The position numbers and the translations under genes are program-made. DNA of 41,059 bases from a virus. Under the pieces are notes generated by a model. That model saw only the letters and a program-made list of their open reading frames with translations, was not told the DNA's origin and made no database searches. The stretch covers positions 1 to 41,059 of the IMG/VR virus record IMGVR_UViG_3300032242_002732. The stretch is one strand, 5' to 3'. Numbering within the stretch: position 1 is the stretch's first letter; the number at the start of each line of letters is the position of its first letter. Of the stretch, positions 5,974-41,059 are shown piece after piece.

Positions 5974-8900
5974 TTATACTAACCGCTCAATACTAATCAT
6001 ATTGTTGTTAAAAGCACCACCAATCATTACAGTAATGCGATAGGACTTGGTGTAGCCATAATTCAGTATATAAGTTGCGGCATCACCTTCGCTGCCAAAA
6101 CTCCATCCAAAAATTGATGTGCTTGGGGTTGTTGTCATCGAAAAACCAGCAGAGTTTCCGCCAACAGTGGCACCACCAAACATACCATAAGTACCACTTA
6201 TATAACAACTTGCTGTTCCAGATACTGTGGCCAAACTTAATCCACGATTACCGCTGGTTGGCACTGTGGCTTTGATATTGTCCATTGTGACAAATGTACC
6301 AGCATTGACAAAAGCACTCACACGATTGTTTAATAACGTATCCACCCCTGCTGCTGCTTGGGACAAATCAATATATGCTCCGCGAGCCGTTCCACCACCT
6401 TCAAAAAATCTAACTCTATCAATATATTGATCAATAACGACCATACTACCACTTAGACTTGAGTTAGGGCATTTAGCTAAGTCTAATTCTCCACCTTCAT
6501 TACCACTTGCGTTAGTGGAATAGAAAGTACTGGCGGTTGCAATACCAGTTACAGTTAAATTATTTGCTGCACTAAGTGAACCTACGGTACCTGAATAACC
6601 AGAAGTACCAGCAGCTCCTTGCGCTCCAGTAGCTCCTTGCGCTCCAGTAGCTCCTTGCGCTCCGTTTGTACCAGTAGCTCCTTGTGCTCCAGTAGCTCCT
6701 TGGGAACCTATAGCTCCTTGCGCTCCGTTTGTACCAGCAGCTCCTTGCGCTCCAGTAGCTCCTTGCGCTCCGTTTGTACCAGTAGCTCCTTGTGCACCTT
6801 GGGCACCTGTTGTACCCGAATAACCAGAAGTACCTTGAACGTTTTGTAATTCAATAGCATATATAACCGGTCCAGCAGCTTCCCCAAAAGTAACCGCCAC
6901 GTTAGGTGCAGTTACAGCCTTTAATGAGTACGTATACGTACCAGCTGGAGGATTATCTATAACAGAAAGACTAAATTCTTGATTTTCATTTGCTCCACTG
7001 CCTTCTATAAATGTTTCATTACCTATTGCTGAAGCACCTCTATAAAGATTCAATTTGCAGAAAATATTAGACCCTGCATTATACCCATCCCCGTATACAC
7101 AAACTTGCACGGGATTACCATTAGTGGTTAAATTTACCGAAACAATAGTATATGGATAGGTACTACCTGTAGGTACGGTTACTTGATTGCTTTTATTTTG
7201 AGCATAATTTAATGCCCCTAATGCGGTGTGACCTGAATATCCAGAAATGCCTGAATTACCAGAATAACCAGAAGTACCGGTAGCTCCTTGCGCTCCATTT
7301 GTACCTGTCGACCCTTGGGCTCCTTGCGCTCCATTTGTACCTGTCGACCCTTGGGCTCCTTGCGCTCCATTTGTACCTGTCGACCCTTGAGCTCCTTGCG
7401 CTCCATTTGTACCGGTTGATCCTTGTGTCCCGTTAGCACCTTGGGCGCCTTGTGTGCCAGTTGCTCCTTGAGCGCCTTGCGTACCCTGTGCTCCATTTGC
7501 ACCGGAATAACCAGAAGCGCCCATTGGTCCGTTATTACCAACTGAACCTTGAGCACCTTGTGCACCTGTTACCCCACTATAACCCGAATTACCATATGCT
7601 ATTAAATTAGCACTGAAGTAAGTGCCTTGACCCGCACCACCCTGAAAAATAGTTTGACCACCGGTTTGGGTGTTGTAAGTAGTAAAATCAAGATAATCAG
7701 TTGTACCGTTAAGATATACGATTTTTGTTGCAGCTAACGAATAACCAGTGCCTGATAATGGGTTTGTTTGACTAATAGATTGAGTCGAACCATTTTTTCT
7801 TATTTGTATATTATTTTGGCCCCACGCGTTTTCAGGTGGTGAGCTATGCCACCAAACTTGATATTCTACTTGGTAATAACCAGCTATTGTTGGTGTAAAT
7901 TGATAAGTTGAAGTGTTTAACCAGTTATTAGGATCAGCTACAACTGTTTGCCAAGACATTAATGTGTCCGAACCACCTGCTGCAGTAATATCGCCGCTTA
8001 AAGTAGCAATAGTTATATAGTTACTTGCTCCAAATGTACCGGGTGCACCAGAATAACCAGAAGACCCGCTATAGCCTGAAGAACCTGCACCACCTGCAGG
8101 CCCGTATGTAATTTCTGCTGTAGATGTATTATAATACACAGCATTTGTAACAGAGTCTGTATCGTTACGTACTGGTTTTACAAAGAAACCACTGCTTAAT
8201 GCTGGGGTAACGTTGCCTGTTGCGTTAATAACAATACTATTAGGTACTTGATAGGGATAGTCGCTTTCACTACCACCAGCATAATGACCAATAGCGATAG
8301 CGTTATTACCTTGTTGATAATGACCAGCAAATCTACCAATAGCAATAGCGTGTCTACCTTGACCAGTCGCACCAGCGTGGTTACCAATAGCAACTGATTG
8401 ATCAAGTTGATCTGTGGAACCAGCATATGTACCGATAGCTACTGAATCAGTGTGTTGATTTGTATTACCAGCGTTTAAACCGATAGCAACTGAGTCTGTA
8501 GATTGAGAAGTGATTCCTGCACCTGTACCGATTGCAATTGGGTTAGTAAAATTATTAACCCCTGTATAAGCTGTAGTTTGTATTGAACCGTCTGGAAATA
8601 CTATTGTACCGCTTAACCCTATACTAGTACCAGCTTGAGAAACTGGATCTATTGCTGCTGAAGGTAATATAAACCTACCACTTAAATCAAAATTCCAATT
8701 ATTAAATAGAGACCCACCGTTATCTACACTAGTTTGTATCCAGGCACCGTCATCTTGCGCAAAAACTATTTGATTGTAATTACTGTTGTATACGCCTGCT
8801 GAATTACCTGAAGCAGCCACAACACTACCACTACCTACTGAAGACCCGTCTCCAAAAACTATCGCCGTACCGCTATTAAAATACAAATTACCATCTGCAG

Positions 8901-8997
8901 ATAACGTAGCTGTGTTTGAGCCGTTTATAAGTTGATCTGTAGGGCCTCCGCTACTACCGCCCGACAAACCAGGAAATAAGTTTCTATTCCAATACAT
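5974..8997 (-). CDS. Collagen-like, YadA-repeat-containing tail fibre or virion fibre protein
   Basis: A 1007-residue fibre-like protein. In order: an N-terminal beta region; six VAIGxxAG repeats at about 150-245, like the head repeats of trimeric YadA-type adhesins; SGYSG linkers; a jelly-roll-like segment at about 325-465; a first collagen-like Gly-X-Y tract (GAQGAQGSTGTN units); a second globular segment; a second Gly-X-Y tract; and a C-terminal domain of about 190 residues. Gly-X-Y tracts and YadA repeats both form trimers, so a trimeric fibre with a receptor-binding tip is likely. No intramolecular chaperone motif was recognised. It starts 3 bases after the upstream fibre gene and lacks its own late box. 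Confidence 0.75.
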   Translation of the reverse strand: MYWNRNLFPGLSGGSSGGPTDQLINGSNTATLSADGNLYFNSGTAIVFGDGSSVGSGSVVAASGNSAGVYNSNYNQIVFAQDDGAWIQTSVDNGGSLFNNWNFDLSGRFILPSAAIDPVSQAGTSIGLSGTIVFPDGSIQTTAYTGVNNFTNPIAIGTGAGITSQSTDSVAIGLNAGNTNQHTDSVAIGTYAGSTDQLDQSVAIGNHAGATGQGRHAIAIGRFAGHYQQGNNAIAIGHYAGGSESDYPYQVPNSIVINATGNVTPALSSGFFVKPVRNDTDSVTNAVYYNTSTAEITYGPAGGAGSSGYSGSSGYSGAPGTFGASNYITIATLSGDITAAGGSDTLMSWQTVVADPNNWLNTSTYQFTPTIAGYYQVEYQVWWHSSPPENAWGQNNIQIRKNGSTQSISQTNPLSGTGYSLAATKIVYLNGTTDYLDFTTYNTQTGGQTIFQGGAGQGTYFSANLIAYGNSGYSGVTGAQGAQGSVGNNGPMGASGYSGANGAQGTQGAQGATGTQGAQGANGTQGSTGTNGAQGAQGSTGTNGAQGAQGSTGTNGAQGAQGSTGTNGAQGATGTSGYSGNSGISGYSGHTALGALNYAQNKSNQVTVPTGSTYPYTIVSVNLTTNGNPVQVCVYGDGYNAGSNIFCKLNLYRGASAIGNETFIEGSGANENQEFSLSVIDNPPAGTYTYSLKAVTAPNVAVTFGEAAGPVIYAIELQNVQGTSGYSGTTGAQGAQGATGTNGAQGATGAQGAAGTNGAQGAIGSQGATGAQGATGTNGAQGATGAQGATGAQGAAGTSGYSGTVGSLSAANNLTVTGIATASTFYSTNASGNEGGELDLAKCPNSSLSGSMVVIDQYIDRVRFFEGGGTARGAYIDLSQAAAGVDTLLNNRVSAFVNAGTFVTMDNIKATVPTSGNRGLSLATVSGTASCYISGTYGMFGGATVGGNSAGFSMTTTPSTSIFGWSFGSEGDAATYILNYGYTKSYRITVMIGGAFNNNMISIERLV
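6607..6800 (-). repeat. Collagen-like Gly-X-Y repeat tract (C-terminal)
   Basis: Imperfect 9- and 18-base units encoding GAQGAT and GTNGAQ blocks within the 5974-8997 fibre gene. The units differ by single bases and are shuffled. Confidence 0.8.
7283..7413 (-). repeat. 36-bp tandem repeat in the fibre gene
   Basis: Units begin at 7283, 7319, 7355 and 7391. The first two are identical over 36 bases, the third differs only in its last base, and the fourth keeps the first 23 bases. Each encodes the 12 residues GAQGAQGSTGTN (in rotated register). Near-perfect DNA identity points to recent expansion, and length changes would stay in frame. Confidence 0.9.
8262..8550 (-). repeat. YadA-like head repeats (protein level)
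   Basis: Six copies of the VAIGxxAG pattern, each about 14-16 residues, within the fibre protein. Known structures of such repeats form left-handed beta-rolls in trimeric adhesins. Confidence 0.65.
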
Positions 8998-12171: not shown

Positions 12172-12183
12172 AATAGGTCTATA

Positions 12184-12191: not shown

Positions 12192-12208
12192 TATAAATGC
12201 TTAGATGT

Positions 12209-17285: not shown

Positions 17286-17313
17286 ATTGTATTATAAAAA
17301 TTAATATTGTCCA
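17286..17313 (-). promoter_or_regulatory. Putative sigma70-like early promoter for the DUF366 gene
   Basis: On the minus strand: TGGACA (17313-17308), a 16-base spacer and TACAAT (17291-17286), ending 6 bases before the ATG. Confidence 0.4.
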
Positions 17314-17987
17314 GTCCTTGCTTTGTTAATAAACCAATCTTGACCTAATCTAAATTCGTCAGAATAATTTTGTAAACCTGGAGAAGCATGTATAACATTA
17401 ATATTAGTTGTACCAAGTTTAAGCTTGGCTTTGTTACACTGCAAGCAAAAATCTAAATCATAAAAGTGAAACTTAGAAGGACAAGTTTCATCAAACTTAA
17501 CACCGGCTTCAAATATTTTTTTCGGGTTAAATGCTAAGAACAAACCGTCTAAAAGTGCCACTCTACCGTTTTTACCGAAATGGGTATTAAATACGCTATT
17601 TTTACCGAAATCTACATGATTAACACTGCCTTTTAAATCTTCTTTTGCACACATTAAGTGCCATAATGCCGGGGCTTGTATTTTAGGATTAATACCACCC
17701 GCTAACCCTACTATATCATATTTCTGTAATGATTGGTGTAGTTTGTTTACCCAATCTTTATCGGTTATAACTACATCATCGTGAGCCAACACTAGTACAC
17801 AATTCTCATTACTATAAGAATTGATATAAGAATTATATACTTTAGCAATTGCTGTTTTATTATTAAAAACCCCGTTAGAAGCTGTTACACTTTCTAAGCC
17901 TTCACTATGAGTAATAGTAAATTTGTTTTTATTTGTAAGATCTAAATATGAAGAAGCGGTAGTACAGTAACCTATGTACGTATTCAT
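17301..17987 (-). CDS. Glycosyltransferase, GT2-like (Glyco_tranf_2_5 type)
   Basis: A 228-residue GT-A protein. Metal-binding HDD lies at 69-71 (VLVLAHDDVVI), followed by a W-x-x-x-L helix, GLAGG, ALLDGLFLAF and HFYDLDFCLQC near 173-183, the usual acceptor-side motif of this GT2 group. N-terminal strands lack the usual 'vsiiip' start, so it may be a shortened form. It starts by an ATG that overlaps the preceding stop (TAATG). Its 3' end holds the promoter for the DUF366 gene. Confidence 0.75.
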   Translation of the reverse strand: MNTYIGYCTTASSYLDLTNKNKFTITHSEGLESVTASNGVFNNKTAIAKVYNSYINSYSNENCVLVLAHDDVVITDKDWVNKLHQSLQKYDIVGLAGGINPKIQAPALWHLMCAKEDLKGSVNHVDFGKNSVFNTHFGKNGRVALLDGLFLAFNPKKIFEAGVKFDETCPSKFHFYDLDFCLQCNKAKLKLGTTNINVIHASPGLQNYSDEFRLGQDWFINKARTGQY

Positions 17988-24995: not shown

Positions 24996-25009
24996 AAAAA
25001 TATTATATA

Positions 25010-28554: not shown

Positions 28555-28956
28555 ATGGACTTACTCAATATAGATAAAATATTTAACGAATTTCAAGTAG
28601 AACTTAATAATGATATTAAGATGGATGAACTTACTATTAAAGAAAAATCTATGCTTGCCCCCACCACTAAACATCGATGGGTAGCAAGAACTATGCAATA
28701 TAAAAGCACTTTGCTTAAACTTGAATATACCAAGAAGCAAAAAATTAAAGCAAAAATAATTAATTCCCCTGTGTCTTTGTCAAGAACCGCCCGGGATGAA
28801 ATAACACAAAATGATGATGAAATTGCATCTATTAACGCATGTATTGATCAAGTAAAAATAATAGTAGAATATCTTGAAAAAATTGAAAAACTAACAGGTT
28901 CATTGACATTTGATTATAAAAATGTAATAGATCTACAAAAACTTGAAACAACATAA
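28555..28956 (+). CDS. uvsY: Recombination mediator UvsY-like protein
   Basis: A 133-residue protein (T4 UvsY is 137), all-helical and basic, with KHRWVARTMQYKSTLLKLEY in the place of the conserved W-containing helix and a long C-terminal helix pair. In T4, UvsY helps load the UvsX recombinase on gp32-covered single strands. The weak direct similarity is backed by its position: its stop shares a base with the UvsW start (TAATG), and uvsY and uvsW are also neighbours in T4. It heads the plus-strand operon. Confidence 0.7.
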   Translation: MDLLNIDKIFNEFQVELNNDIKMDELTIKEKSMLAPTTKHRWVARTMQYKSTLLKLEYTKKQKIKAKIINSPVSLSRTARDEITQNDDEIASINACIDQVKIIVEYLEKIEKLTGSLTFDYKNVIDLQKLETT

Positions 28957-30419
28957 TGGTAGTTGAGTTTCAATACGACCCGAAACGTAAGGAAGTAAAA
29001 ATCGTATCAGATTATCTTCCTAGTATTAAAGAGTTCTTTAGTGTAAAGAACCCAGGTGCACGTTTTAATCGTTTTCAAAGATTTTTACCTCAACGTATAT
29101 ATGCTATAACTAATGCAGGGTATTGTGGTATAGGTTTAGTACCAGAGATTAAAAAATATCTTGCAAATCAAAACATACCTTTTGAAATTAAAGTTAATCA
29201 AGAGTATAGTGAAATATTGCAACAAACACAATTGTTAAATCTCAAATCTGAACCGTCTATTAAAAAATTAACAGGGGATTATGTACTTAGAGATTATCAG
29301 CAACAAGCTATAGACAGCGCACTAGATTACGGTTACGGGGTTGTTGAACTAGCTACAGGTGGTGGAAAGACTTTAATTATTGCTAACTTAGTGTATGCTG
29401 CATTACATGAAATTGAGCTTACACATAAGATATTAATAGTTGTACCAGACTTAGGTTTAGTTACGCAAACTTATAAAGATTTTATCTCGTACGGTTTTCC
29501 GATAGAAATTGTCAGTAAATGGACCGGTAATACTGAATTAGACCCTAATGCCCGGGTTATTATTGCTAATATGGGTATTTTGCAAAGTAAAAACTCAGAT
29601 ATTAGTTGGTTTAATAAAATAGGTTTATTAGTTGTGGATGAATGCCATAAACTACGCAGAGGCAACAAAGTATGTAAACTACTTGACAAAGTACCTACAT
29701 TAAGACGTATCGGCTTTACAGGAACATTACCAGAAAACGATATTGATACATGGAATATTAATAACTTTATTGGACCGGTCATTTTTAAAAAAACCACTAC
29801 AGAATTAAGAGAAGCTGCTGGTGGAGAATATATTGCTAATGCACAATGTATAGCTATTAAGCTTAATTACGACTTTAAGCCAGATTATACTGCAGTGTCT
29901 TCTGCACAAAAATATCTTTTAGAGTTAGACTATATACATAACAGTATGTTTAGAAATAAAGTAATTAAGCAGTTAGCACATAATTTTAAAAATAACTGTC
30001 TTATACTTATAGATCATATTGCCCACGGAGATAATCTTTATAAAGAGCTGTTAACTTTAACAGATAAACAAGTATTCTTTATACAAGGTAGTGTAGAGGT
30101 TGAAGAACGGCGCAGAGTACAAGAAATTATGGAACAACATAACAATATTGTGTGTATTGCCATTAGTAAAATATTTTCCACTGGCATTTCTATAAAAAAC
30201 ATACATTATATAGTATTTGCTGCAGGCGGTAAATCAAAAATTAAAACTTTACAATCTATTGGTCGTGGATTACGTGTTCACGAAAACAAAGATATATTAA
30301 CATTGGTTGATATTGTTGACAATTTAATTTATGGTATTAAGCACTACGACAAACGAAAAGAATTTTATGACCTTGAAAAAATCAAAATTACCGAAAAAAC
30401 AATTACTGAAACAGCATGA
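28956..30419 (+). CDS. uvsW: UvsW-like superfamily 2 helicase
   Basis: A 487-residue protein (T4 UvsW is 503). A UvsW-specific N-terminal domain is followed by LRDYQQQAID (Q-motif-like), Walker A LATGGGKTL at 132-140, LVVDECHKLR, IGFTGTLPE (motif III), then in the second RecA domain SKIFSTGISI and SIGRGLRVHE (motif VI). UvsW migrates branched DNA and removes R-loops, and in T4 turns off origin-dependent replication. The last codons overlap the gp55 gene. Confidence 0.93.
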   Translation: MVVEFQYDPKRKEVKIVSDYLPSIKEFFSVKNPGARFNRFQRFLPQRIYAITNAGYCGIGLVPEIKKYLANQNIPFEIKVNQEYSEILQQTQLLNLKSEPSIKKLTGDYVLRDYQQQAIDSALDYGYGVVELATGGGKTLIIANLVYAALHEIELTHKILIVVPDLGLVTQTYKDFISYGFPIEIVSKWTGNTELDPNARVIIANMGILQSKNSDISWFNKIGLLVVDECHKLRRGNKVCKLLDKVPTLRRIGFTGTLPENDIDTWNINNFIGPVIFKKTTTELREAAGGEYIANAQCIAIKLNYDFKPDYTAVSSAQKYLLELDYIHNSMFRNKVIKQLAHNFKNNCLILIDHIAHGDNLYKELLTLTDKQVFFIQGSVEVEERRRVQEIMEQHNNIVCIAISKIFSTGISIKNIHYIVFAAGGKSKIKTLQSIGRGLRVHENKDILTLVDIVDNLIYGIKHYDKRKEFYDLEKIKITEKTITETA

Positions 30420-30903
30420 AGAGCCGTCAACTGTAAAAATTACTAAAATAGCAAAAGCAGATAAACCTAAAAAGCCATTAAGTGAATCTGCTAAAGCTAA
30501 AAAAGTATACTATGTAAGCCCTGCTGAATTTACAGAAGAACTTCGAAAATATTACGCAACTAATGTAATGAGTGATAATCTCGCCATTATGATACGCAAT
30601 ATTGCTTATGGGTTAGCACATGCTTCAAATTTTATTAATTACACATTTAAAGAAGAAGCTATTGGAGATTCCCTTATCAATATGTTCAATGCTTTAAAAG
30701 ATAAAAAGTATAACTTTGATAAAGGTTTTAATCCTTTTTCATATTTTAATTCTATAGCTTTTAATTGTTGGCGTTCTCGTATTAAAAAAGAAAAACGTAT
30801 GAGAGAGACTTTAGCTGCTTATCAAGAAGAAGTATATAGTGTTATAGGCCCTAATGTTGGTGTAGAAGATCCAGTAAACCCAATTAGTAAACATGTTGAT
30901 TAA
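30367..30903 (+). CDS. 55: Late transcription sigma factor, gp55-like
   Basis: A 178-residue protein (T4 gp55 is 185). ATG 30367 is chosen (MTLKKSKLPKK); a start at 30331 lies deeper in uvsW. A basic, low-complexity N-terminus leads to a sigma-2-like helical core: MIRNIAYGLAHASNF, FKEEAIGDSLINMFNAL, FDKGFNPFSYFNSIAFNCWR and SRIKKEKRMRE. In T4, gp55 recognises the late box TATAAATA together with gp33 and the sliding clamp. Its presence supports reading the octamers in this window as late promoters. Confidence 0.88.
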   Translation: MTLKKSKLPKKQLLKQHEEPSTVKITKIAKADKPKKPLSESAKAKKVYYVSPAEFTEELRKYYATNVMSDNLAIMIRNIAYGLAHASNFINYTFKEEAIGDSLINMFNALKDKKYNFDKGFNPFSYFNSIAFNCWRSRIKKEKRMRETLAAYQEEVYSVIGPNVGVEDPVNPISKHVD

Positions 30904-31945
30904 AGGAACAGAAGTCGGTATATTTTCAGACCCACACTATGGGGTGCACCGTAATAGCGCTACATGGCATAAAATTGCTCTAGACCACGCTAAATGGGCT
31001 GCGCAGCAATTTAAATCTAAAGGTATACAAGATATAATAATTCCAGGAGATATATTTCATGATCGTAATGACATTGCTGTTAACACTCTTCATGTGGCTA
31101 CTGACATATTTGATATACTTCGCGATTTTAATATTATTATTACCGTGGGTAATCATGACGCTTATTATCGAGATAACTCTTCAGTTAATTCCGTTTCAAT
31201 TCTTCGTGGGTGGTCTAATATTACTGTTGTTGACACTCTTGTTGTTGAAACCCACCAAGGTAAAAAAATAGCTTTTTGCCCATGGGGTCAAGACATTAAT
31301 GAAGTACCTAAATGTGATTTAATTATAGGTCATTTTGAAATTAATAGTTTTAAAATGAATTCTTATAAAGTGTGTACCAATGGTTTAAAATCTTCTGATT
31401 TAACTGATAGAGCGTCTTTAACTATTACAGGCCATTTCCATCATAGAGAAGAACGCAAATATAAAGAAGGTACAATACTGTATGTAGGTAGTCCTTATCA
31501 AGAAGATTGGGGAGATTTCGGGACCACAAAAGGTCTTTATATACTAGATTTATCTGATTTAAGTTATAGTTTTATTGAAAACGATATATCTCCGCGTTAC
31601 ATGCGTTTGCAGTATACTCAATTGACAGACGGTACGTATACTTCAGATACACTTAAAACAGCTATTGCAGGTAATATTGTTAAATTTGTAGTTGACAAAA
31701 CAGTAGATCCGGTTGCGCTGGAAACAATAGTACGTAAATTAGTAGCTGTTAAACCTGTGGAATTTACTATAGAACATGATGTTACAGAACAAAGTAAAAT
31801 TAATATTGAAGAAGCTGCTAACAAGGAATTTAATATTAGTGTAGAAAAGTCTATAGAAGAATTTATAGAACTAATGGATATTAAAAACAAAGAAGCAGCT
31901 AAAACTTATGTAGTAGATCTTTATAGTAGAGCTATTAAAATGTAA
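30893..31945 (+). CDS. 47: Recombination endonuclease subunit gp47 (Mre11/SbcD-like)
   Basis: A 350-residue protein (T4 gp47 is 339). Metallophosphoesterase motifs appear in order: IFSDPHYGVH (D13, H15), IPGDIFHDRND, TVGNHDAYY, IGHFEI and TGHFHHREE. With gp46 it forms the T4 version of the Mre11-Rad50 complex that resects DNA ends for recombination-dependent replication. It overlaps gp55 by 11 bases. Its partner gene is 5 kb downstream, beyond six glycosyltransferase genes, whereas in T4 the two lie close together. Confidence 0.95.
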   Translation: MLIKGTEVGIFSDPHYGVHRNSATWHKIALDHAKWAAQQFKSKGIQDIIIPGDIFHDRNDIAVNTLHVATDIFDILRDFNIIITVGNHDAYYRDNSSVNSVSILRGWSNITVVDTLVVETHQGKKIAFCPWGQDINEVPKCDLIIGHFEINSFKMNSYKVCTNGLKSSDLTDRASLTITGHFHHREERKYKEGTILYVGSPYQEDWGDFGTTKGLYILDLSDLSYSFIENDISPRYMRLQYTQLTDGTYTSDTLKTAIAGNIVKFVVDKTVDPVALETIVRKLVAVKPVEFTIEHDVTEQSKINIEEAANKEFNISVEKSIEEFIELMDIKNKEAAKTYVVDLYSRAIKM

Positions 31946-31946: not shown

Positions 31947-32924
31947 ATGAAAATAGGCATACATTCAAATCAATTCGATGGTCGTGGCACAGGTAAAACA
32001 CCGTACGATTATGCGGTAGCACTTAGAGACATACTAGGTCATGAAGTAGTATTTCTTACCACACATGATGATCCTAACGAGGGTTTACCTAAACTTCAAG
32101 AAGAGTTTCAGTCATTCCAATACCACGGTAATGCTAACAGAGCCCCTGCACAAGAAGTTAAGAGTCAGTTAGAAAAAATAGTAGCTGAACAAAAAATAGA
32201 TTTTGTTCAAATGATGAAGTCTGGTGCTAATGATTTTGTTAATCCAGAAAACTGTAAGACAGGCACTCATTATATATTTGATGGATCTCAGCCTCATGGT
32301 ACATCATTTGCAGCTGTTTCTGACTTTTTAGCGCGCAAGTTTAAACAAACAGCATACGTGCCGCATATAATGTATAGTATACCACCCACTAAAGATATTA
32401 GAGCTGCATTAGGTATACCAAAAGATGCTTTAGTTATTGGTAGACATGGGGGTAAAGAATCATTTGATATACCTTGGGTACAGAAAGCTGTTTCAGATAT
32501 ATTAAATACTCGTAAAGATGTTTATTTTATATTTCTATCTACTAATCAATTTATTTCACATGAAAGAGCTATATTTTTCCCTTGGGTAAAAGATGAAAGG
32601 GGTAAGTTTAATTTTATACATGCATGTGATATTATGCTACACGCAAGACAAATAGGAGAAACATTTGGCTTAGCAGTAGGGGAGTTTTCAGCAAGTAATA
32701 AACCAGTCATGACATGGAGCGGAATGGGTTATTCAGGATATGATACTGCACATGTAGAACATATGCTTGGCAATCCTTATTTGTATCATGAGTATAATGA
32801 CTTAATGACTACATTAAAACAATTGGATGTTAATTATATACGAGGTAAAAATTGGGACTGGTTTACAGAGAAATTTAGCCCAAAGTCTGTAATTACTCAG
32901 TATAAAGACATATTTTTAAAATGA
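31947..32924 (+). CDS. Glycosyltransferase, GT-B fold (GT4-like)
   Basis: A 325-residue protein. The N-terminal half opens with MKIGIHSNQFDGRGTGK, an acceptor-side strand, and the C-terminal half has the donor side: VIGRHGGKESFDIPW, then HARQIGETFGLAVGEFSASN near 226-245, the E-x7-E-like motif of GT4 retaining enzymes. It is first in the cassette between gp47 and gp46, one base after the gp47 stop, and overlaps the next gene by ATGA. Confidence 0.75.
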   Translation: MKIGIHSNQFDGRGTGKTPYDYAVALRDILGHEVVFLTTHDDPNEGLPKLQEEFQSFQYHGNANRAPAQEVKSQLEKIVAEQKIDFVQMMKSGANDFVNPENCKTGTHYIFDGSQPHGTSFAAVSDFLARKFKQTAYVPHIMYSIPPTKDIRAALGIPKDALVIGRHGGKESFDIPWVQKAVSDILNTRKDVYFIFLSTNQFISHERAIFFPWVKDERGKFNFIHACDIMLHARQIGETFGLAVGEFSASNKPVMTWSGMGYSGYDTAHVEHMLGNPYLYHEYNDLMTTLKQLDVNYIRGKNWDWFTEKFSPKSVITQYKDIFLK

Positions 32925-33739
32925 AAATTGGTGTTGGTATAATTACTTGCAATAGAAATGAATATCTTAAAGGGTTGCTAGCAACTTTACCCGAAGATAT
33001 AATAAATGAACTTGTAATTGTTAATGACGGTAAAGCTGAAAACCGTATAGATGTACCTGGTATCTGGTTGCAAAACAAAGTCAATCTAGGGGTAGGTAAA
33101 TCTAAAAATAAAGCAATGAAACATCTTTACGATAAAGGTTGTGAACATATTTTTATTATTGAAGATGATATGCTTATTAAAGACAAAAATGTATTTATAA
33201 AATACATTGAAGCATATAAAGATTCAGGTATACAGCATTTTAATTACGGACCAGGATCTCCATTTAACCGTAAACAAAATATTGCTTTTGATTTACACAA
33301 TAGACATTTATTAGATCAAAAAAGCCCTCCCAACCCTAAACTTATAGTGGAATACCCTCACTGTAAAATTGCTTTATATGAGCATACAGTAGCAATGTTT
33401 TCGTTTTTTACCCGAGAGGTATTAGAGAAAGTCGGTTATATTGACGAACAGTTTTATAATGCTTGGGAGCACGTGGATCATACTTATCGTATTGCTTTAG
33501 CAGGTTACCACCCTCCATTCTGGTGGTTTGCTGATATAGCAGATAGTGAAAAATATCTTGAAGAAGCTCCAGGTGCTATTGATAATTCTTCTATAGCCGA
33601 TAAAAAAGAACAGTGGCACAAGAACGTTTATGGTGGTAGAGAACTTTATTTAAAAAAACACGGCCATTATCCTAATGAACCTAAGATATACTCTCAAGAA
33701 CAAGTAATTAAAATTTTAAAACAAATTAAATCTAGATGA
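32921..33739 (+). CDS. Glycosyltransferase, GT2-like (GT-A fold)
   Basis: A 272-residue protein. GVGIITCNRNEYLKGLL at 4-20 is a typical GT2 start, IVNDGK near 33-38 follows, the metal site is IIEDDM near 79-84, and FYNAWEHVDHTYRIALAGY lies in the acceptor region. Second gene of the cassette, coupled on both sides by 4-base ATGA overlaps. Confidence 0.85.
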   Translation: MKIGVGIITCNRNEYLKGLLATLPEDIINELVIVNDGKAENRIDVPGIWLQNKVNLGVGKSKNKAMKHLYDKGCEHIFIIEDDMLIKDKNVFIKYIEAYKDSGIQHFNYGPGSPFNRKQNIAFDLHNRHLLDQKSPPNPKLIVEYPHCKIALYEHTVAMFSFFTREVLEKVGYIDEQFYNAWEHVDHTYRIALAGYHPPFWWFADIADSEKYLEEAPGAIDNSSIADKKEQWHKNVYGGRELYLKKHGHYPNEPKIYSQEQVIKILKQIKSR

Positions 33740-34518
33740 ACGAAATAATAACATACGGGCAAAATTATACTCTTAACAAAGGTATAAAAGCTTTTATTAA
33801 GTCTGCTGTTAAAACCGGCAACAAAACAACTGTTATTGGGTATAATTTACAGAATGACACTATTAAGTTTTTTAAAGAAAACAATGTAAACTACGTAGAT
33901 GCATTACCTATTGCTGCAAAATATAATGTAGATTTAAACTTATCACCCTACACTCTTAAAGTTATTTTCTTTTATTTATATTGTAATAAAATCTCTACCG
34001 CTAGTAGTGTATTTTTATGTGATTTTACAGATGTTTATTTTCAAGACGATGTTTTTAAGTTTTTACCTAAAACTCAAGGCAAACCTACTGTTTTTATTGA
34101 ACCAGAACAAATAGCAAATTGCAAAACAAACACTACATGGATGAATTTATGTTATAATAATGACATATATAATCTTACTCGTGGGTATGAAATTATTAAC
34201 GGAGGTGCTATATTAGGACATAGAGAGCGCTGTGCTGAACTATTAAAAGAAATGTGTTCAGATATTTCAATTATAATTGGTCGAGTTGGTAATTATCCTA
34301 ATATAGATCAAGCGGTTTTAAACAAAGCCGTACGCTTTGATTATCTTAGATACAATATTTTTAGCTGGGATGTAGTAGCTAATATGGCTTATGCTAATGT
34401 AAAATTACCAGTAGTAATACGTAATAGCAAAATTGTAGTAGGGGATGTTATCCCAGCTGTGGTACATCAATATGATGTTAACAAAGATATAGAAAAATTT
34501 ATAAATGAACAAAGTTGA
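33736..34518 (+). CDS. Putative glycosyltransferase, GT-A fold with DxxD motif
   Basis: A 260-residue protein. VFLCDFTDVYFQDDVF at about 92-107 holds a DxxD-type metal site like that of several eukaryote-like GT-A families, EIINGGAILGHRE follows near 152-164, then NIDQAVLNKAV and VVHQYDVNKD near the end, all in the order expected for such enzymes. The exact GT family is not clear. It overlaps the next gene by 14 bases. Confidence 0.65.
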   Translation: MNEIITYGQNYTLNKGIKAFIKSAVKTGNKTTVIGYNLQNDTIKFFKENNVNYVDALPIAAKYNVDLNLSPYTLKVIFFYLYCNKISTASSVFLCDFTDVYFQDDVFKFLPKTQGKPTVFIEPEQIANCKTNTTWMNLCYNNDIYNLTRGYEIINGGAILGHRERCAELLKEMCSDISIIIGRVGNYPNIDQAVLNKAVRFDYLRYNIFSWDVVANMAYANVKLPVVIRNSKIVVGDVIPAVVHQYDVNKDIEKFINEQS

Positions 34519-35254
34519 TATAATTATTTTATCTCTTGCAGAAGACGACAAGAGCTTTCAAACTACCAAGAGTTGTGTTGATTCTTATATAGCTACCGCT
34601 GATGAGTTAATTAACAAAATATACATTATTGAATCATGCAAACAATTTAATAAAGATTATAATAATTCTAAAGTAGAGGTAATAATACCCACTCAAGAGT
34701 TTAACTATAATCAATTTTTTAACATTGGTTTAAGTCGTTGTAAAGCTGAATATATAATGGGGCCTAATAATGATTTAACAATACAGAAAGATTGTATACA
34801 GAATATTGTTAAAGAATTTGAAACTAATAGTTTTGTTAGTTCTATTAGTCCTATTGATAGGGAATGGCATCGTCATACTAAACAGTATTTTGTTAATGAT
34901 AATAAGTTATACTACGGGTGGGAAATAGCATTACATATGTTTGGAGCGTGTTTTTGTGCTCGCAGAAGTGTATTTGAAAAAATTGGTTATCTAGATGAGA
35001 GGTTTTACTTTTTTTATCAAGACAATGACTATATATTAAGTTTACAGCGTAATAATCTTGTACACGGGGTATTAACTAGCGCGCGAGTAAGCCACAAGAG
35101 TGGAGATACAGCTAAAGCTAATCGTGGACCACGGAGATGTCAATATATACCAGAAAATATGAACGCTCAGGGTAATATACTTGGTAAAAAATGGCATGAA
35201 GAAGAACCATACAAATCTGGCGGATTTAAAAAATTTAAAGAATATACTCTATAA
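34505..35254 (+). CDS. Glycosyltransferase, GT2-like
   Basis: A 249-residue protein. VDIIILSLAEDDKSFQT begins the GT-A fold, FNYNQFFNIGLSRCKAEYIM fits the region before the metal site, where GPNNDL (86-91) replaces DxD with NND. A later MFGACFCARRSVFEKIGYLD and FYQDNDYILSLQ segment is very typical of GT2 enzymes. The altered metal motif may affect donor choice or activity. Confidence 0.8.
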   Translation: MNKVDIIILSLAEDDKSFQTTKSCVDSYIATADELINKIYIIESCKQFNKDYNNSKVEVIIPTQEFNYNQFFNIGLSRCKAEYIMGPNNDLTIQKDCIQNIVKEFETNSFVSSISPIDREWHRHTKQYFVNDNKLYYGWEIALHMFGACFCARRSVFEKIGYLDERFYFFYQDNDYILSLQRNNLVHGVLTSARVSHKSGDTAKANRGPRRCQYIPENMNAQGNILGKKWHEEEPYKSGGFKKFKEYTL

Positions 35255-36145
35255 ATGAATATTTCATTTTTATATGCCAGACTACCTAAAGACGTTTGGA
35301 ACACATCAATAGCATTACAAAGAGAGTTTGAGACAGCTGGTCATAAAACTAAATGCTATTCTTCAATGAATTTACAGGAAAAGTATACTGAAGACGGTAT
35401 AACTGATTTACTCTTTGAAGCTAAATCAGGTATATTTGTACCAGATGTAGTTATTAACTTTGATTATGGTATGTTTCGTAGTTCTCTCTTAACTAAAAAC
35501 CAATTTCCTTCTGCTAAATGGATATTAGAATCTGGAGATGACCCTCAAAGTTTTGGTTACAATCATCAAAAAGCTGTAACCGGTAATTTTGATATTATTT
35601 TATCTCCAGATATTAGATGTGTACAGCAATATACAAAAGAAGGTTATAACGCTATGTGGTTTCCACATTTTGCAGATACTGCTATGTACCCAGATAAAGT
35701 TTATAATATTGTTCCTGATTTAGATGCTGTATGTACTAGAGATGTATCAGATAAATTCTTTCAAAGTGTAAAAACACGTCTAGGTAAACGTTTTGATACT
35801 CGTAGTGGTTTGCATGCATTAGAACACTCTTCATATCTCAGAAGAGGTAAAATAGTACTACAAAACAGTCAATATAAAGAAGTTACACGACGTATATTTG
35901 AAGGTATGCTAGCCAATAGGATGGTTATTGCTGATAGACCCGATAAAGATACCCGTATTGATTTAATATTTGAAGAGGGTAAAGAAATTGTTTACTTTGA
36001 TTCATTAGATGATTGTATTGATAAGGTTAATTATTACACTAACAATGAACTAGAAAGACTTAAAATTGCGCAAGCTGGTTACAACAAAGTAATGAAATAC
36101 CATACAGCTACTACTAGAGTAAAATCATTATTAAAATTTTTATGA
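35255..36145 (+). CDS. Glycosyltransferase, GT-B fold (CgeB/Glyco_trans_1_2-like)
   Basis: A 296-residue protein. N-terminal half: ISFLYARLPKDVWNTS and WILESGDDPQSFGYN, then DIILSPDIRCVQQY. C-terminal half: QNSQYKEVTRRIFEGMLANR, IADRPDKDTRI and IVYFDSLDDCIDKVNYY, followed by the final helix AGYNKVMKYHT. This order is characteristic of the CgeB-like group. It starts directly after the previous stop with no gap. Confidence 0.8.
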   Translation: MNISFLYARLPKDVWNTSIALQREFETAGHKTKCYSSMNLQEKYTEDGITDLLFEAKSGIFVPDVVINFDYGMFRSSLLTKNQFPSAKWILESGDDPQSFGYNHQKAVTGNFDIILSPDIRCVQQYTKEGYNAMWFPHFADTAMYPDKVYNIVPDLDAVCTRDVSDKFFQSVKTRLGKRFDTRSGLHALEHSSYLRRGKIVLQNSQYKEVTRRIFEGMLANRMVIADRPDKDTRIDLIFEEGKEIVYFDSLDDCIDKVNYYTNNELERLKIAQAGYNKVMKYHTATTRVKSLLKFL

Positions 36146-37002
36146 AAGTACTTTATTTAACTAAGGGAGATCATGTAGACTATCAAAATGATGCTGTTCT
36201 GATTGGTTTAAAAGAGCTGTACGGAGCAGATATTTTAGACCTCAACAAGCAAGAACATAATTACGAAAATTACGATGCTGAAAGAGCTAGTAAGCTTTAT
36301 GGTATGGGTATGACTGTTACCCGTGTATTACCCGATTTAAATGTAGACCGCACTGATATTACTTCGAAGATAGTTAACAAGTATTTTGATTATGTGGTAT
36401 ATGGTTCTATATGGAGATGTAGTGATTATCTAGATGAAATACTACAACATTATCCTGTTAATAAAGTTGTTGCTATAGACGGAGAAGACGAAACCAATAT
36501 TCACCCTTCTTACAATAAAGGCATTGTTTATTTTAAACGAGAACTTATTTATGATAAACCCAGAATGTTTCCTATAAATTTTGCAATTCCTGTGTGTAAG
36601 ATTAATTTTAACATAAATAAAATCAAAAATCAATCGTTTATTACACCACTAGACAAAAGCACTTACATTTATAAAAATGAAAAAGACTACTATAATGACT
36701 ACAACCAGTCAAGATTTGGTGTAACGGTTAAGAAAGCTGGTTGGGACTGTTTAAGACATTATGAAATACTAGGTAACGGTTGCATACCTGTATTTTACAA
36801 TATAGATAAATGCCCTGACCTTACAATGAAGTACTTTCCTAAAAAAGAATGCCAAAATGTACTAGCAGACATATCTAATAAAGAAAAACCTGAAAACATT
36901 TACGACAAGCATATTGAATCGTTTAAACAGGCATTATACCAAAATTGTACCACAACTGCGGTAGCGAAAAGAATGTTAGAGACGTTGAATAGTTTAGTTT
37001 AG
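36142..37002 (+). CDS. Glycosyltransferase-like protein (exostosin-like C-terminal motif)
   Basis: A 286-residue protein. The key block is SRFGVTVKKAGWDCLRHYEI at about 190-209 followed by LGNGCIPVFYNIDKCPD, which recurs in bacterial and viral GT-B or exostosin-like proteins. The N-terminal half is an alpha/beta domain (VLYLTKGDHVDYQ, YVVYGSIWRC). Last gene of the six-gene cassette, with a 4-base ATGA overlap at its start. Catalytic residues cannot be assigned. Confidence 0.65.
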   Translation: MKVLYLTKGDHVDYQNDAVLIGLKELYGADILDLNKQEHNYENYDAERASKLYGMGMTVTRVLPDLNVDRTDITSKIVNKYFDYVVYGSIWRCSDYLDEILQHYPVNKVVAIDGEDETNIHPSYNKGIVYFKRELIYDKPRMFPINFAIPVCKINFNINKIKNQSFITPLDKSTYIYKNEKDYYNDYNQSRFGVTVKKAGWDCLRHYEILGNGCIPVFYNIDKCPDLTMKYFPKKECQNVLADISNKEKPENIYDKHIESFKQALYQNCTTTAVAKRMLETLNSLV

Positions 37003-37012
37003 AGTTTATAAT
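36985..37012 (+). promoter_or_regulatory. Putative sigma70-like early promoter for gene 46
   Basis: TTGAAT (36985-36990), 16-base spacer, TATAAT (37007-37012), ending 9 bases before the gp46 ATG. It would let gp46 be made independently of the glycosyltransferase cassette. Confidence 0.45.
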
Positions 37013-37021
37013 AGTAAACTA

Positions 37022-38845
37022 ATGCAGTACGTCTTTTTTAAGAATATAAAAATTACTAACTTCCTGTCTGTAGGTAAAAGACCGGTTGCTGTAGATTTTA
37101 AGCCTGGATTAAATATTATTACAGGCCGTAATTTAGATAAAGCTGATCGAGCTAACGGGGTAGGCAAATCTACAATAGCAGATGCTATACATTTTGCTCT
37201 ATACGGTTCAACTATAAGAGATCTCAAGAAAGAAAATATAGTTAACAACCTTTATCCAGAAGATGTGTGCGAGGTAGAAATTGAATTTACAGTTAGCGAT
37301 AATGATATAAAATCAGATTATAAAATAGTACGCACGTTAAACCCTACTAAATGTTTTTTATACATAAACGGAGAAGATAAAACTCGTTCTGGGGTACCAC
37401 AGACTACTGAATATATTATTGATATAATAGATACCTCTCCAGAAGTATTTCAAAATAGTATAGTAATGACCATAAACAATACAGTTCCGTTTATGGCACA
37501 AAAAAAGATTGAAAAGCGTAAATTTATTGAAGGTATTCTTGGTCTAGAAGTGTTTAGTAATATGTTAAGTATCGCTCGCTTTGATTTTAATGAAACAAAA
37601 CGCAACCTAGATATCGAGCATACTAAAGTAGATGAATCTGAGAGAGTACTACAAGATAGTATCAAACAAAAACAGACTTACGAAGAAACAAAAAGTAAAC
37701 GTAGAGAAGTGCTACTTACTCGACAGCGCAATAATGAACAAGAGATTGCATTAATTAATGAAAAAGTTGGTAAGTTAGAGTCTGTAGATGCCGCGACTCA
37801 AAAAAATATAGAAGATAATTTAGCTGCACTTAAAATCGCAGAAAGTACTTGTGATAAAAAAATAGCTGCAGTTAATAAGCTTATTACTGAAGCAGAAACT
37901 CACATTAAACTTAATAACGATCGGGTTAAAAAACTTAAAAAAGTAGATAGTAAATGTCCACATTGCGGTAAAGATTTAGCTGAAGCTACTAACGTTCAGT
38001 ACGAAAAAGATAAAGCTGAATGTCAGTCAGAAATACAGAAGTATACAGAAGCTATTTCTAAAGAAAAGCCTCGCTTAGTAGAAATACAAACACATTTAGA
38101 TAAAATAGAGAAAGGCATTACATCTACTCAGAAGAAGTTAAATGACCTTAATATTCGCCGTAAAGAGGTAGAGAATATTAACTCTCGTTTAAATCAGCTC
38201 AATGTTTGGCAGTCACAGCTTGTGGTTGATTTAGATGCATTAAATAACGATGATCATACATACAACGATAGTATTAAGAAGATAGAAGACCGTTTAACAG
38301 AGATTAAAATTAAAGTTAACGAGTTACAGACTAAGATTGACATTATTGAATCTGCAAAGTTTATTACTTCTGAAGAGGGTGTAAAGTCATTTATTGTAAA
38401 AAAAATACTAGAAGTACTAAATCTTAGACTTGCATTTTATCTTAAAAGACTTGAAAGTAATAGTACTGTTAAATTTAATGAATTCTTTGAAGAAACCATT
38501 ACTAATGAACGTGGTGTTGAATGTAGTTACTTTAACTTTTCTGGAGCAGAGCGTAAAGCTATTGATCTTGCGATGATATTTACATTTCAAGATATCCGTA
38601 GAGCTCAAGCTAACGTATGGTTAAACATATCTGTATTTGATGAGTTATTAGACTCATCATTAGATGAAAAAGGTATTGAATTAGTATTGGATATAATACG
38701 GGAGAGAGTAGAAAAATACCAAGAGGCAGTATATATAATATCACACCGTAAAGAAAGTATGAAATACTGTACTAGCGGTGAAATTATATTCCTCGAAAAG
38801 AAAAATGGTATAACTGTAAGATCAACAAATTTTAATAATGAATAA
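37022..38845 (+). CDS. 46: Recombination endonuclease subunit gp46 (Rad50/SbcC-like)
   Basis: A 607-residue SMC-like ATPase (T4 gp46 is 560). Walker A is NGVGKSTIAD at 45-54, with a Q-loop region near QNSIVMTINN. Two coiled-coil arms flank the zinc hook CPHCGKDL (C312 and C315). The C-terminal lobe has the signature-like FSGAERKAIDLAMIF and the Walker B SVFDELLDSSLDEKG; the final YIISHRKE supplies the H-loop. It works with gp47 in DNA end resection. Confidence 0.95.
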   Translation: MQYVFFKNIKITNFLSVGKRPVAVDFKPGLNIITGRNLDKADRANGVGKSTIADAIHFALYGSTIRDLKKENIVNNLYPEDVCEVEIEFTVSDNDIKSDYKIVRTLNPTKCFLYINGEDKTRSGVPQTTEYIIDIIDTSPEVFQNSIVMTINNTVPFMAQKKIEKRKFIEGILGLEVFSNMLSIARFDFNETKRNLDIEHTKVDESERVLQDSIKQKQTYEETKSKRREVLLTRQRNNEQEIALINEKVGKLESVDAATQKNIEDNLAALKIAESTCDKKIAAVNKLITEAETHIKLNNDRVKKLKKVDSKCPHCGKDLAEATNVQYEKDKAECQSEIQKYTEAISKEKPRLVEIQTHLDKIEKGITSTQKKLNDLNIRRKEVENINSRLNQLNVWQSQLVVDLDALNNDDHTYNDSIKKIEDRLTEIKIKVNELQTKIDIIESAKFITSEEGVKSFIVKKILEVLNLRLAFYLKRLESNSTVKFNEFFEETITNERGVECSYFNFSGAERKAIDLAMIFTFQDIRRAQANVWLNISVFDELLDSSLDEKGIELVLDIIRERVEKYQEAVYIISHRKESMKYCTSGEIIFLEKKNGITVRSTNFNNE

Positions 38846-40007
38846 TTCCTTTGTATTAGGTGCACCCGCTTTACCGTTTGGAGCTCCAGCTTTTGGCTCT
38901 CCTGTGTCTCAACAGCCCGCGTACCAAAGCCCAGCAGGTGGTACTCCAGCAAACATGGCTATTAGTTTTGCAGCTGACCATGGTGGGTGTGGTTTTTGGA
39001 GAATGCATTGGCCAGAGTCTTTAATTAATTCATCAGGTAAGGGAGTTGTAACAAATTCTACAATGATGCTACTAGACCCTCGTATGTATGCTGGGGTCAA
39101 ATCTGTAAAAATACAACGTCAAGTAACCCCACCACAATTACAATTTGTAAAATTTTTAAGAGAAACATCTGACAAGGGAAATAAGTTTAAACTTTATTAT
39201 GAAATAGATGATGTTATTTTTCCAGAAGATATTCCACTGTATAATAAATCTAGAGAAGCTTTCGTTGATCCTGTTATTAGTCAAACAGCAATAGAGATTA
39301 TTAAAAATTGCGATGCTGTTACTTGCCCCACTAAATTTATGGCAGACTATTATACAGAAAAGACTGGAGTGCCTGCTATAGTAGTACCTAACTATATGCC
39401 AAAGTTTTGGATAGACCGTTTTTATAGTAAAGCTAAAGTTGTAGAAAACTTCGATCGTAACAAGAAACGTCCGCGTATTGGTTATGTAGGCAGCCCGACT
39501 CATTTAAACGTACAGAGACTGCCTGGTGTTATGGATGATATTGAACCATTTACTGATATTATTCGTAAAACTTACAGAGATTACAAGTGGGTATTCATGG
39601 GCGCAGTACCTAATACAATACAAGATTTAGTAAAAGCTGGAGAGGTAGAATTTATAGGCTGGAAATCATTATATGAATATGCATATGCATTTGATTCTCT
39701 AAATCTTAACCTAGCTTTTGCACCACTTCAAAACAACAAGTTTAACTATGCAAAAGCACCTATTAAATATTTAGAAGCTGGTGCATTAGGAGTACCTTGT
39801 TTATGCCAAGATGCTCCACCATACAATACAGATCCAGTAGCACCTCTACGGTTTAATACCCCTGATGAAATGATGGATCTAGCTAAGAAGCTACTAAGAG
39901 ACCGTAGAATGTACTTAAATGAATCGGATGATGCTCGTAAGGTTGCAACCAAGTATTGGTTAGAAGATCACATTGATGAGCACATGAAAGTTTACTTTCC
40001 TTCTTGA
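38838..40007 (+). CDS. Glycosyltransferase, GT-B fold (GT4-like)
   Basis: A 389-residue protein. The first 38 residues are low complexity (Pro, Gly, Ala, Ser, Gln), then an N-terminal Rossmann half with FKLYYEIDDVIFPEDIPLYN and CDAVTCPTKFMADYY, and a donor half with RIGYVGSPTHL, WVFMGAVPN, VEFIGWKSLYEYAYAF and the GT4 motif KAPIKYLEAGALGVPCLCQD near 313-332. It overlaps gp46 by 8 bases and is followed directly by the polymerase gene, so it is a second insertion in the recombination/replication operon. Confidence 0.85.
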   Translation: MNNSFVLGAPALPFGAPAFGSPVSQQPAYQSPAGGTPANMAISFAADHGGCGFWRMHWPESLINSSGKGVVTNSTMMLLDPRMYAGVKSVKIQRQVTPPQLQFVKFLRETSDKGNKFKLYYEIDDVIFPEDIPLYNKSREAFVDPVISQTAIEIIKNCDAVTCPTKFMADYYTEKTGVPAIVVPNYMPKFWIDRFYSKAKVVENFDRNKKRPRIGYVGSPTHLNVQRLPGVMDDIEPFTDIIRKTYRDYKWVFMGAVPNTIQDLVKAGEVEFIGWKSLYEYAYAFDSLNLNLAFAPLQNNKFNYAKAPIKYLEAGALGVPCLCQDAPPYNTDPVAPLRFNTPDEMMDLAKKLLRDRRMYLNESDDARKVATKYWLEDHIDEHMKVYFPS

Positions 40008-40037: not shown

Positions 40038-41059
40038 GTGTATCGTAACGTATATTATAATTCTAGAGAGTCTTCTGCATTTCTATTTACTTGGGATAAA
40101 ACTGGTAAACGTGTTGTAACTAAAACACCTTACAGTCCTTATTTTTATGTAGAAACTAATCAGGATAATGCTGATGCTTTGTCTATTTTTAACACTAAGT
40201 TAAAGAAAAAAATTTTTAAGAATTCGTTTGAACGCAATAAAGCTGCGCAAGACGGTGCAATTAAACGCTTATATCATAATATTCAGGTAGAACAGCAGTT
40301 TCTTATTGAAAAATTTAAAGACGATTACGAAAAGCCTGAATTCTCTGAAAACGCTTTAAAGGTTTGTTTTCTTGATATTGAAGTTTATTCTCCGGACGAA
40401 TTCCCTGAAGCTAAGGATGCTAAACACCCTATTAATCTTATAACCATATATGATAACTTATCTGATACATTTTATACTTTTGGTGCAAAACCTTATACCC
40501 CTACTCGTAAAAATGTAGTATATACTGAATGTAGTGGTGAGATTGATTTACTTAACAAGTTTTTAGAATTTTGGGAAAAAGACTATTATCCCGATATACT
40601 ATCTGGTTGGAATACAGATTTTTTCGACTTTCCTTATTTAATTAATCGTATTAGTAGTATGCTAGGAGAAAGCGACGCTAAGCGCTTATCTCCGTTGAAA
40701 AGTCTTTGGTGTCGTAAAGGCATTTTTGTTAAAGGTCAAGAACTAGATCGTTGGTATATACATGGTATGTCTGCTATGGACTATATGGAAGTGTATAAAA
40801 GTTTAGCTAGGGGTTTATTAGAGTCTTATGCTCTTAATTTTGTTGCTCAGCATGAACTTGGAGAAGGTAAATTAGCTGTTAACGCAACCAGTTTAGCCTC
40901 TCTGTCTATTGATGATTGGAAATCTTTTGTAGACTATAATATTCAAGACGTTGATCTTTTAGTAAAAATGGAGAAAAAACTCCAATTCTTTAAGATTATC
41001 CGTATGTTAGCCTATAAAGGTTTAACTAGTTTTGAAGCTGCTTTAGGTAAAGTACAAAT
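40038..41059 (+). CDS. 43: DNA polymerase, gp43-like family B (partial, N-terminal 340 residues)
   Basis: No ATG is available. I take GTG 40038 (VYRNVYYNSRESSAFLFTWD, with Met in place of Val); an AAGAAGG stretch lies 14 bases upstream. The frame is open to the right edge. The 3'-5' exonuclease motifs are present: Exo I CFLDIEVYSPDEF, Exo II SGWNTDFFDFPYLINR, Exo III DYNIQDVDLLVKME. The polymerase palm is beyond the window. The GTG start and long gap suggest weaker translation than for the coupled genes before it. Confidence 0.92.
   Translation, partial: MYRNVYYNSRESSAFLFTWDKTGKRVVTKTPYSPYFYVETNQDNADALSIFNTKLKKKIFKNSFERNKAAQDGAIKRLYHNIQVEQQFLIEKFKDDYEKPEFSENALKVCFLDIEVYSPDEFPEAKDAKHPINLITIYDNLSDTFYTFGAKPYTPTRKNVVYTECSGEIDLLNKFLEFWEKDYYPDILSGWNTDFFDFPYLINRISSMLGESDAKRLSPLKSLWCRKGIFVKGQELDRWYIHGMSAMDYMEVYKSLARGLLESYALNFVAQHELGEGKLAVNATSLASLSIDDWKSFVDYNIQDVDLLVKMEKKLQFFKIIRMLAYKGLTSFEAALGKVQ

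Follow-up and report, generated by a model that had tools for sequence, protein, structure and literature searches.

We analyzed the 41,059-base IMG/VR virus record IMGVR_UViG_3300032242_002732 (hereafter, the window), a T4-like phage sequence with a G+C content of ~33% and without end repeats, and in particular the six putative glycosyltransferase (GT) genes, GT1 to GT6, that stand between its gp47 and gp46 genes. Comparison with related viral contigs showed that the gp47-gp46 interval is a fixed address, that its occupancy changed a single time on the gp46 tree, that its content turns over and is exchanged in blocks, and that the operon has been transferred to a second address. The best explanation for the interval is that it is an exchangeable glycan-assembly cassette; the phages that carry it are freshwater relatives of T4. 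Glycosyltransferases of phages are mostly encountered one at a time and are attributed to DNA or the host surface. Here, five or six of them travel as a group from lineage to lineage and between the two addresses, while GT7, a further gene of this kind located downstream of gp46, stays put.

A fixed site of exchange between gp47 and gp46

The plus-strand gene order is UvsY, UvsW, gp55, gp47, GT1 to GT6, gp46, GT7, and gp43, and the six cassette open reading frames (ORFs) of 325, 272, 260, 249, 296, and 286 amino acids fill positions 31947 to 37002. An earlier reading made from the letters of the window alone (the sequence-only reading) had described six consecutive genes inserted here and joined by 4-base overlaps or near-zero gaps. 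The junctions agree with that description: gp47 and GT1 are 1 base apart, GT4 and GT5 abut, GT6 and gp46 are 19 bases apart, and the overlaps are 4 bases for GT1-GT2, GT2-GT3, and GT5-GT6 and 14 bases for GT3-GT4. The flanking genes had also been called near neighbors in T4, where they are near but are themselves parted by 46.1 and 46.2. T4 a-gt lies on the far side of 47, toward 55, and cyanophage P-HM2 has a single small ORF between 47 and 46.

A gp46 search of IMG/VR yielded 79 loci, and we counted the 46 in which both gp47 and gp46 were present, leaving out loci that lacked either. The two genes overlap by 4 bases in 13 of these and are separated by an insert of 3.2 to 9.4 kb in 33, near-identical contigs being unmerged in both counts and some loci being near-copies of each other. 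This comparison, which the sequence-only reading had proposed as a check, bears out its view of the cassette as an insert; empty sites, in which gp47 and gp46 directly overlap, were also found in two further contigs, G022 and G023. Because the six families of the window recur in the same order in 14 of the 46 relatives with both gp47 and gp46, the six-gene arrangement is beyond chance.

The content of the 33 filled loci falls into types. Type A has the six families of the window (14 loci), and type B keeps GT2, with or without GT1, and has the remainder replaced (5 loci). In type C (11 loci, one of them partly inverted and one longer), a GT2-like gene is accompanied by enzymes of the GT11, GT10, and GT7C types and by further genes, and deeper, richer cassettes make up the last 3. 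Every one of the 33 has a member of the GT2 family. Elsewhere among the cassettes we found homologues of GT11 and GT10 fucosyltransferases, GT7C, GT25, and GT47, as well as RmlD-like, UDP-GlcNAc dehydratase-like, and sugar O-methyltransferase genes; nucleotide-sugar genes thus occur in the cassettes of relatives, and the window's cassette has none. A UDP-galactopyranose mutase in a related cluster matched TIGR00031 at 7e-76, under the model's cut-off. Membrane-like segments, one each, were predicted in 2 of the 139 distinct proteins of the cassette clustering, and no Pfam family of a membrane flippase, polymerase, or initiating transferase was found among the 20 representatives scanned. In locus L041, two cassette genes (GT11-type and GT7C-type; 8372-9927, minus strand) have the opposite orientation to the operon.

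On a gp46 tree of 40 rows, one branch (support, 96/92) parts the 27 filled loci from the 13 empty ones. The rows comprised 18 of the 33 filled and 11 of the 13 empty loci, those omitted being mostly near-copies, together with 8 filled loci from the GT6 and GT3 searches described below, G022, G023, and the window; several long branches meet in this tree. The simplest history is a single ancient insertion whose content later turned over, because the empty relatives and T4-like outgroups have gp47 and gp46 adjacent or nearly so. A single loss is a possible alternative. Between the window and locus L008, GT1 and GT2 are 95% and 94% identical at the DNA level, versus 80 to 87% for the other ten genes, and by this measure GT1-GT2 of this pair is a block exchange. 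GT1 and GT3 had diverged further than the flanking genes in most of the other comparisons within type A.

Alignment searches with GT6 and GT3 identified 45 distinct contigs, and in 7 of them the operon lies without gp47 or gp46 nearby; the tally of 37 contigs at gp47-gp46 was assigned by default. Flanks checked on 65 loci, several of which come from the same contigs, contained both borders in 41, one border in 14, and none in 10 (of these 10, two repeat G022 and G023 and one is at a contig edge). L168 and L190 were set at the second address by their left-flank genes only, and the flanks of L185, L186, and L189 were read by eye. The sequence-only reading had named residence of the genes only in late, fiber-linked loci as the finding that would speak against it. 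That expectation was half borne out, in that most of the contigs have the genes at gp47-gp46 and, of the seven that have them elsewhere, two run into sheath stabilizer-portal-neck genes. In L170 and L171, the operon leads into helicase, tail sheath stabilizer, portal, and neck genes (identified by search in L170 and by eye in L171).

The two contigs with an empty site, G022 and G023, carry a GT2-GT3-GT4-GT1-GT6 operon at the second address; in these whole contigs, from which L170 and L171 come, gp47 and gp46 overlap, GT7 is in place, and the operon is elsewhere. Between G022 and the filled, 217-kb G017, the operon proteins are 60 to 71% identical and the core proteins only 36 to 43%, whereas between G022 and its own relative G023 the core proteins are 55 to 69% and the operon proteins 52 to 66% identical. 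All five G022 operon proteins are closer to G017 than to G023. Site labels are likewise mixed on a GT6 tree (23 rows, without L189 and L190, and with few well-supported branches), which has five changes of site, at least two of them forced by well-supported branches. Because the G022 operon is nearer to that of G017 than to that of G023 and the site labels mix, we read the operon as one that moves between phages and between addresses. In G012, which also has an empty site, related GT genes are close to an ORF resembling those that flank the second address, and tail collar, structural, and endolysin genes lie no more than ~12 kb from them. In G023, the second-address operon (36468-44552) lies between paralogous two-gene pairs (36468-37324 and 43594-44552), as if inserted with duplication.

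Enzyme identity and timing of expression

All six genes had been taken for glycosyltransferases of both the GT-A and the GT-B fold. Profiles confirm this for GT2, GT4, and GT5 and a predicted fold does so for GT3, whereas the matches of GT1 and GT6 are weak; both folds are present, but the GT-B assignment of GT6 is not firm. The GT3 protein of the window had no Pfam or PHROG match, and its model (mean predicted local distance difference test [pLDDT] score, 64) matched the GT-A enzymes glycogenin, a blood-group glycosyltransferase, and BoGT6a. GT6 had no glycosyltransferase profile match in Pfam or PHROG, and its model (pLDDT, 61.5) gave weak GT-B matches, none below 1e-3 and the best at 2e-3, to MurG and to 6eji, which we take to be PglH (the structure table gives "a glycosyltransferase"). 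Sequence searches of solved structures with the GT7, GT6, and GT3 profiles gave no matches, and 50,697 cultured-phage records contained no relative of GT3, GT5, or GT6 at an E value of 1e-3. GT6 relatives were found in contigs of cellular genomes (134 confirmed, 80 kept). In two of these, L253 (binned as Winogradskyella) and L279 (binned as Chitinophagaceae), GT6 lies beside other cassette families, namely GT1, GT5, and an O-methyltransferase or GT10/GT11-type genes; these contigs are either misbinned phage contigs or a cellular source.

In the window's clade, the regions ahead of gene starts are strongly enriched in the motif TAA[AG]TA[AT], which we infer to be a late promoter. In the window, it lies 11 to 19 bases upstream of five of the six virion genes tested (prohead protease, neck, portal, one fiber, and sheath stabilizer) and upstream of none of GT1 to GT7, gp47, gp55, UvsW, gp46, and gp43; its frequency across six other loci is 2.4% of 30-base windows. 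Early expression of the cassette is favored, because this late-promoter-like motif precedes virion genes and none of the cassette genes, and the motif distribution upholds the earlier placement of the cassette in an early-type operon. A sign of late expression at the second address was sought and not found at the operon start, where the first genes lack the motif.

A promoter of its own had also been proposed for gp46. The promoter-like site TTGAAT-16-TATAAT at 36985-37012 is 1 of 60 such sites in 13 kb, versus 66.1 expected by shuffling, and overlaps a hairpin. Across seven distinct type A rows, the hairpin is 88.1% paired, with arms that vary while pairing is largely kept; four cells are changed on both sides, and 1 of 500 shuffles scored as high. 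L003 and L020 have differing registers. As a general feature upstream of gene starts, hairpins are about as frequent as in shuffled sequence, and the case for the gp46 hairpin therefore rests on its pair counts. A similar hairpin precedes gp43 in the type C relatives L024 and L027.

Candidate acceptors of a proposed glycan

We give roughly even chances to a soluble pathway that builds a short glycan on a protein of the phage particle. In such a pathway, soluble glycosyltransferases made early with the recombination operon would act in turn in the cytoplasm to produce a short oligosaccharide, the order of sugar addition being presumed, and a shared inner portion may be added or lengthened by the conserved GT7. 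The acceptor would most likely be a phage particle protein, and in the window's clade the best candidate would be the giant Gly-X-Ser/Thr collagen-like fibers. Recombination in the conserved flanking genes would swap cassettes, so that the glycan changes while the address stays, and the benefit might be evasion of recognition or tuning of adsorption.

Homology is consistent with an acceptor on the particle. Against an 11-protein set of mycobacteriophage glycosyltransferases, GT2 matched Girr gp100 and LittleE gp18, GT4 matched LittleE gp17 and Ronaldo gp122, and the galactosyltransferase family C9 matched Che8 gp109; a search of the full phage collection likewise recovered the GT2 and GT4 matches. 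Among the nearest cultured relatives of these two enzymes are LittleE gp18 and gp17, which belong to a GT array that has the major capsid gene on one side and the head-tail connector on the other. Linkage to virion genes is mixed: the second-address operons and a two-gene pair at 1339-2894 of the window are beside virion genes, and the window's cassette is not. The step from early expression to an acceptor other than virion protein, taken in the sequence-only reading, is weakened by the LittleE array and by Che8, which is reported to have capsid glycans and has its glycosyltransferases near the right end, away from virion genes. The window's collagen-like fiber contains Gly-X-Y runs with 58 Ser/Thr in 237 residues, and collagen-like Ser/Thr-rich ORFs were found in 8 of 17 records (the window and G001 to G007), every one of them cassette bearing. 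In this survey, in which G015 and G016 are short, Gly-X-Ser/Thr runs reached up to 1,203 residues in one ORF (G006). Giant fibers of up to 1,887 amino acids occur at G006 112870-118533 and G001 1549-12694, and in the Gly-X-Ser repeats shown X is mostly Tyr, Ile, Phe, or Trp and proline is almost absent.

Several observations weigh against a glycan on the particle. The presence of collagen-like ORFs follows phylogeny, and a link between cassette and fiber as a general rule was rejected because the cassette-bearing G010, G011, G013, and G017 have no such fibers, which are therefore not a general acceptor. The late motif precedes the cassette at neither address, with two inner genes of L170 carrying it. 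Moreover, the authors of the pelagimyophage study read similar genes as modifiers of the host O chain (PMC7029224).

We consider it rather unlikely that the enzymes instead alter host lipopolysaccharide (LPS) or polysaccharide precursors and so block superinfection by competing phages. Early-type promoters would suit host takeover, cellular genomes commonly contain GT6 relatives, and a nucleotide-sugar epimerase-like gene occurs in the retrieved flank of 25 of the 80 loci retained; Zaragoza-Solas et al. favor such a role for pelagimyophage glycosyltransferases (PMC7029224). However, the cassettes are nearly without membrane proteins (LPS core precursors would still be within reach of soluble enzymes), and the likeness of GT2, GT4, and C9 is to mycobacteriophage enzymes with one array beside a capsid gene. 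Less probable still is the glycosylation of a modified DNA base, as by the T4 alpha- and beta-glucosyltransferases. The cassette does lie within a recombination/replication operon with gp46, gp47, and gp43, T4 a-gt adjoins gp47, and QueC, QueE, and QueD in the window together with a TGT/DpdA-like gene downstream of gp43 in the clade suggest 7-deazaguanine DNA. Against this, PF00303 (thymidylate synthase/dCMP hydroxymethylase) was found in 0 of 16 and 0 of 12 records, some of them possibly fragments and the window not among them. The T4 alpha-glucosyltransferase was unmatched by GT1 to GT7 and nine other cassette or window profiles, and it is unusual for a DNA-modifying set to contain fucosyltransferase, GT47, and O-methyltransferase genes. 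QueC also occurs without a gp47-gp46 cassette in G008, G009, and G014, and the cassette occurs without detected QueC in G010, G013 (a 37-kb fragment), and G017; a link between the cassette and the 7-deazaguanine genes was rejected, since each occurs without the other. PF12851 (Tet_JBP) was found in 0 of 17 records with the controls silent too, and the match of GT2 to TAGT (0.029) was below the cut-off. That the site is merely permissive and has collected unrelated auxiliary genes that share no pathway is the reading we hold to be quite improbable. Some members do include non-GT genes (dGTP_diPhyd_N, RpiB-like, and PfkB-like), but the order is conserved, the overlaps are tight, and five glycosyltransferases were transferred as a unit.

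Glycosyltransferase sets are also known from other phages. In aquatic T4-like pelagimyophages, the clusters described share with ours many glycosyltransferase and nucleotide-sugar genes of variable content but are sited in the host-recognition region or form groups of two or three (PMC7029224), whereas here a single fixed gp47-gp46 site is filled in some relatives and empty in others, and the operon also occurs at a second address. Four putative glycosyltransferase families are listed as core genes of moraphages (PMC12619734). The mycobacteriophage virion sets (Che8, Corndog gp35-38, and LittleE gp15-21) are likewise small and include GT2/GT4/C9 homologues and, in Corndog, an O-methyltransferase between portal and protease (PMC4351075). 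They differ in phage group, host, and address, and a virion glycan is reported for Che8 (PMC11256854). T4 a-gt also adjoins gp47 in the recombination region but is a single DNA enzyme needing hydroxymethylcytosine, and we found no matching pathway or similarity. In titles and abstracts of the literature, we found no description of such a gp47-gp46 insert, which is no proof of absence; as far as we searched, the new elements are the fixed address together with its empty-site relatives, the sorting of contents into types, and the transfer of one operon between two addresses.

In bacterial O-antigen and capsule serotype loci, sets of glycosyltransferases are exchanged between conserved flanks. 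The cassettes resemble these loci in having varied glycosyltransferase families at a fixed, exchangeable site, with nucleotide-sugar enzymes and methyltransferases in several of them; unlike Wzy-type loci, they have almost no membrane proteins and no flippase or polymerase family was found in them. A tentative and rather doubtful extension is that these phages have their own serotype locus. It would be a mobile, readily swapped pathway, fixed in position within the recombination operon, that places an O-antigen-like oligosaccharide on the virion and, in the window's clade, on Ser/Thr of the huge Gly-X-Ser collagen-like fibers. If so, close relatives would differ by sugar coat and not by protein sequence. 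If a glycan is on the virion, the particles would have exchangeable sugar serotypes, with a bearing on adsorption, host-range evolution, and recognition. Close relatives that share a backbone but differ in carrying type A, B, or C provide a natural experiment.

Other genes of the window

Features of the window, with positions, strand, and supporting matches
Feature	Positions	Strand	Evidence
Two-gene pair: GT-A-like (1339-2394) and short partner (2391-2894)	1339..2894	+	Between prohead protease and neck gene
Collagen-like Gly-X-Ser/Thr tail fiber, candidate acceptor	5974..8997	-	Tail fiber PHROGs
Additional GT	17301..17987	-	PF13712 1.2e-11
UvsY-like recombination mediator, first gene of operon	28555..28956	+	phrog_231 1.6e-8
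UvsW-like helicase	28956..30419	+	phrog_16 8e-75
gp55 late sigma factor	30331..30903	+	phrog_234 5.9e-17
gp47 (SbcD/Mre11-like), left border of cassette	30893..31945	+	phrog_100 1.1e-64
GT1, GT-B-like glycosyltransferase	31947..32924	+	Weak Pfam only: PF13692 0.008, PF00534 0.036, below cut-offs
GT2, GT-A family 2 glycosyltransferase	32921..33739	+	phrog_2456 5.5e-30; homologues Girr gp100, LittleE gp18
GT3, GT-A fold (glycogenin/GT6/GT8-like)	33736..34518	+	Predicted model versus PDB, best E 4e-6
GT4, family 2 glycosyltransferase	34505..35254	+	PF00535 1.4e-7; Gordonia phage, LittleE gp17 homologues
GT5, GT-B glycosyltransferase	35255..36145	+	PF13524 5e-21
GT6, probable GT-B glycosyltransferase, family common in cellular genomes	36142..37002	+	Weak GT-B fold matches
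Hairpin just upstream of gp46 start codon, containing TATAAT box	37003..37020	+	
gp46 (SbcC/Rad50-like), right border of cassette	37022..38845	+	phrog_77 2.7e-87
GT7, conserved GT-B-like glycosyltransferase between gp46 and gp43	38838..40007	+	phrog_7162 3.1e-25
Presumed gp43 DNA polymerase, cut by window end	40038..41059	+	Open frame; synteny with full-length gp43 frames in relatives

The last frame of the window is one that we take, from knowledge of the family, to be gp43. The glycosyltransferase set as first described holds at gp47-gp46 but had missed a seventh gene, GT7, after gp46. GT7 is present in 77 of the 79 loci, filled and empty alike, and the remaining two end within gp46.

Additional sugar-enzyme genes lie outside the operon. 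The PF13712-type glycosyltransferase is, in relatives, usually close to the glutamine amidotransferase-QueC genes and is present also without detected QueC in G011, G012, and G017. In the window, QueC, a glutamine amidotransferase-like gene, QueE, and QueD lie at 18667-20044 and 24189-25450. The TGT/DpdA-like ORF downstream of gp43 (G003 20814-21638) matched TIGR00449 weakly (0.013) and phrog_19058, a family of unknown function. Of the pair at 1339-2894, the second gene had no NCBIfam match and the first a weak one (3.5e-4), and the pair is conserved in the window's clade.

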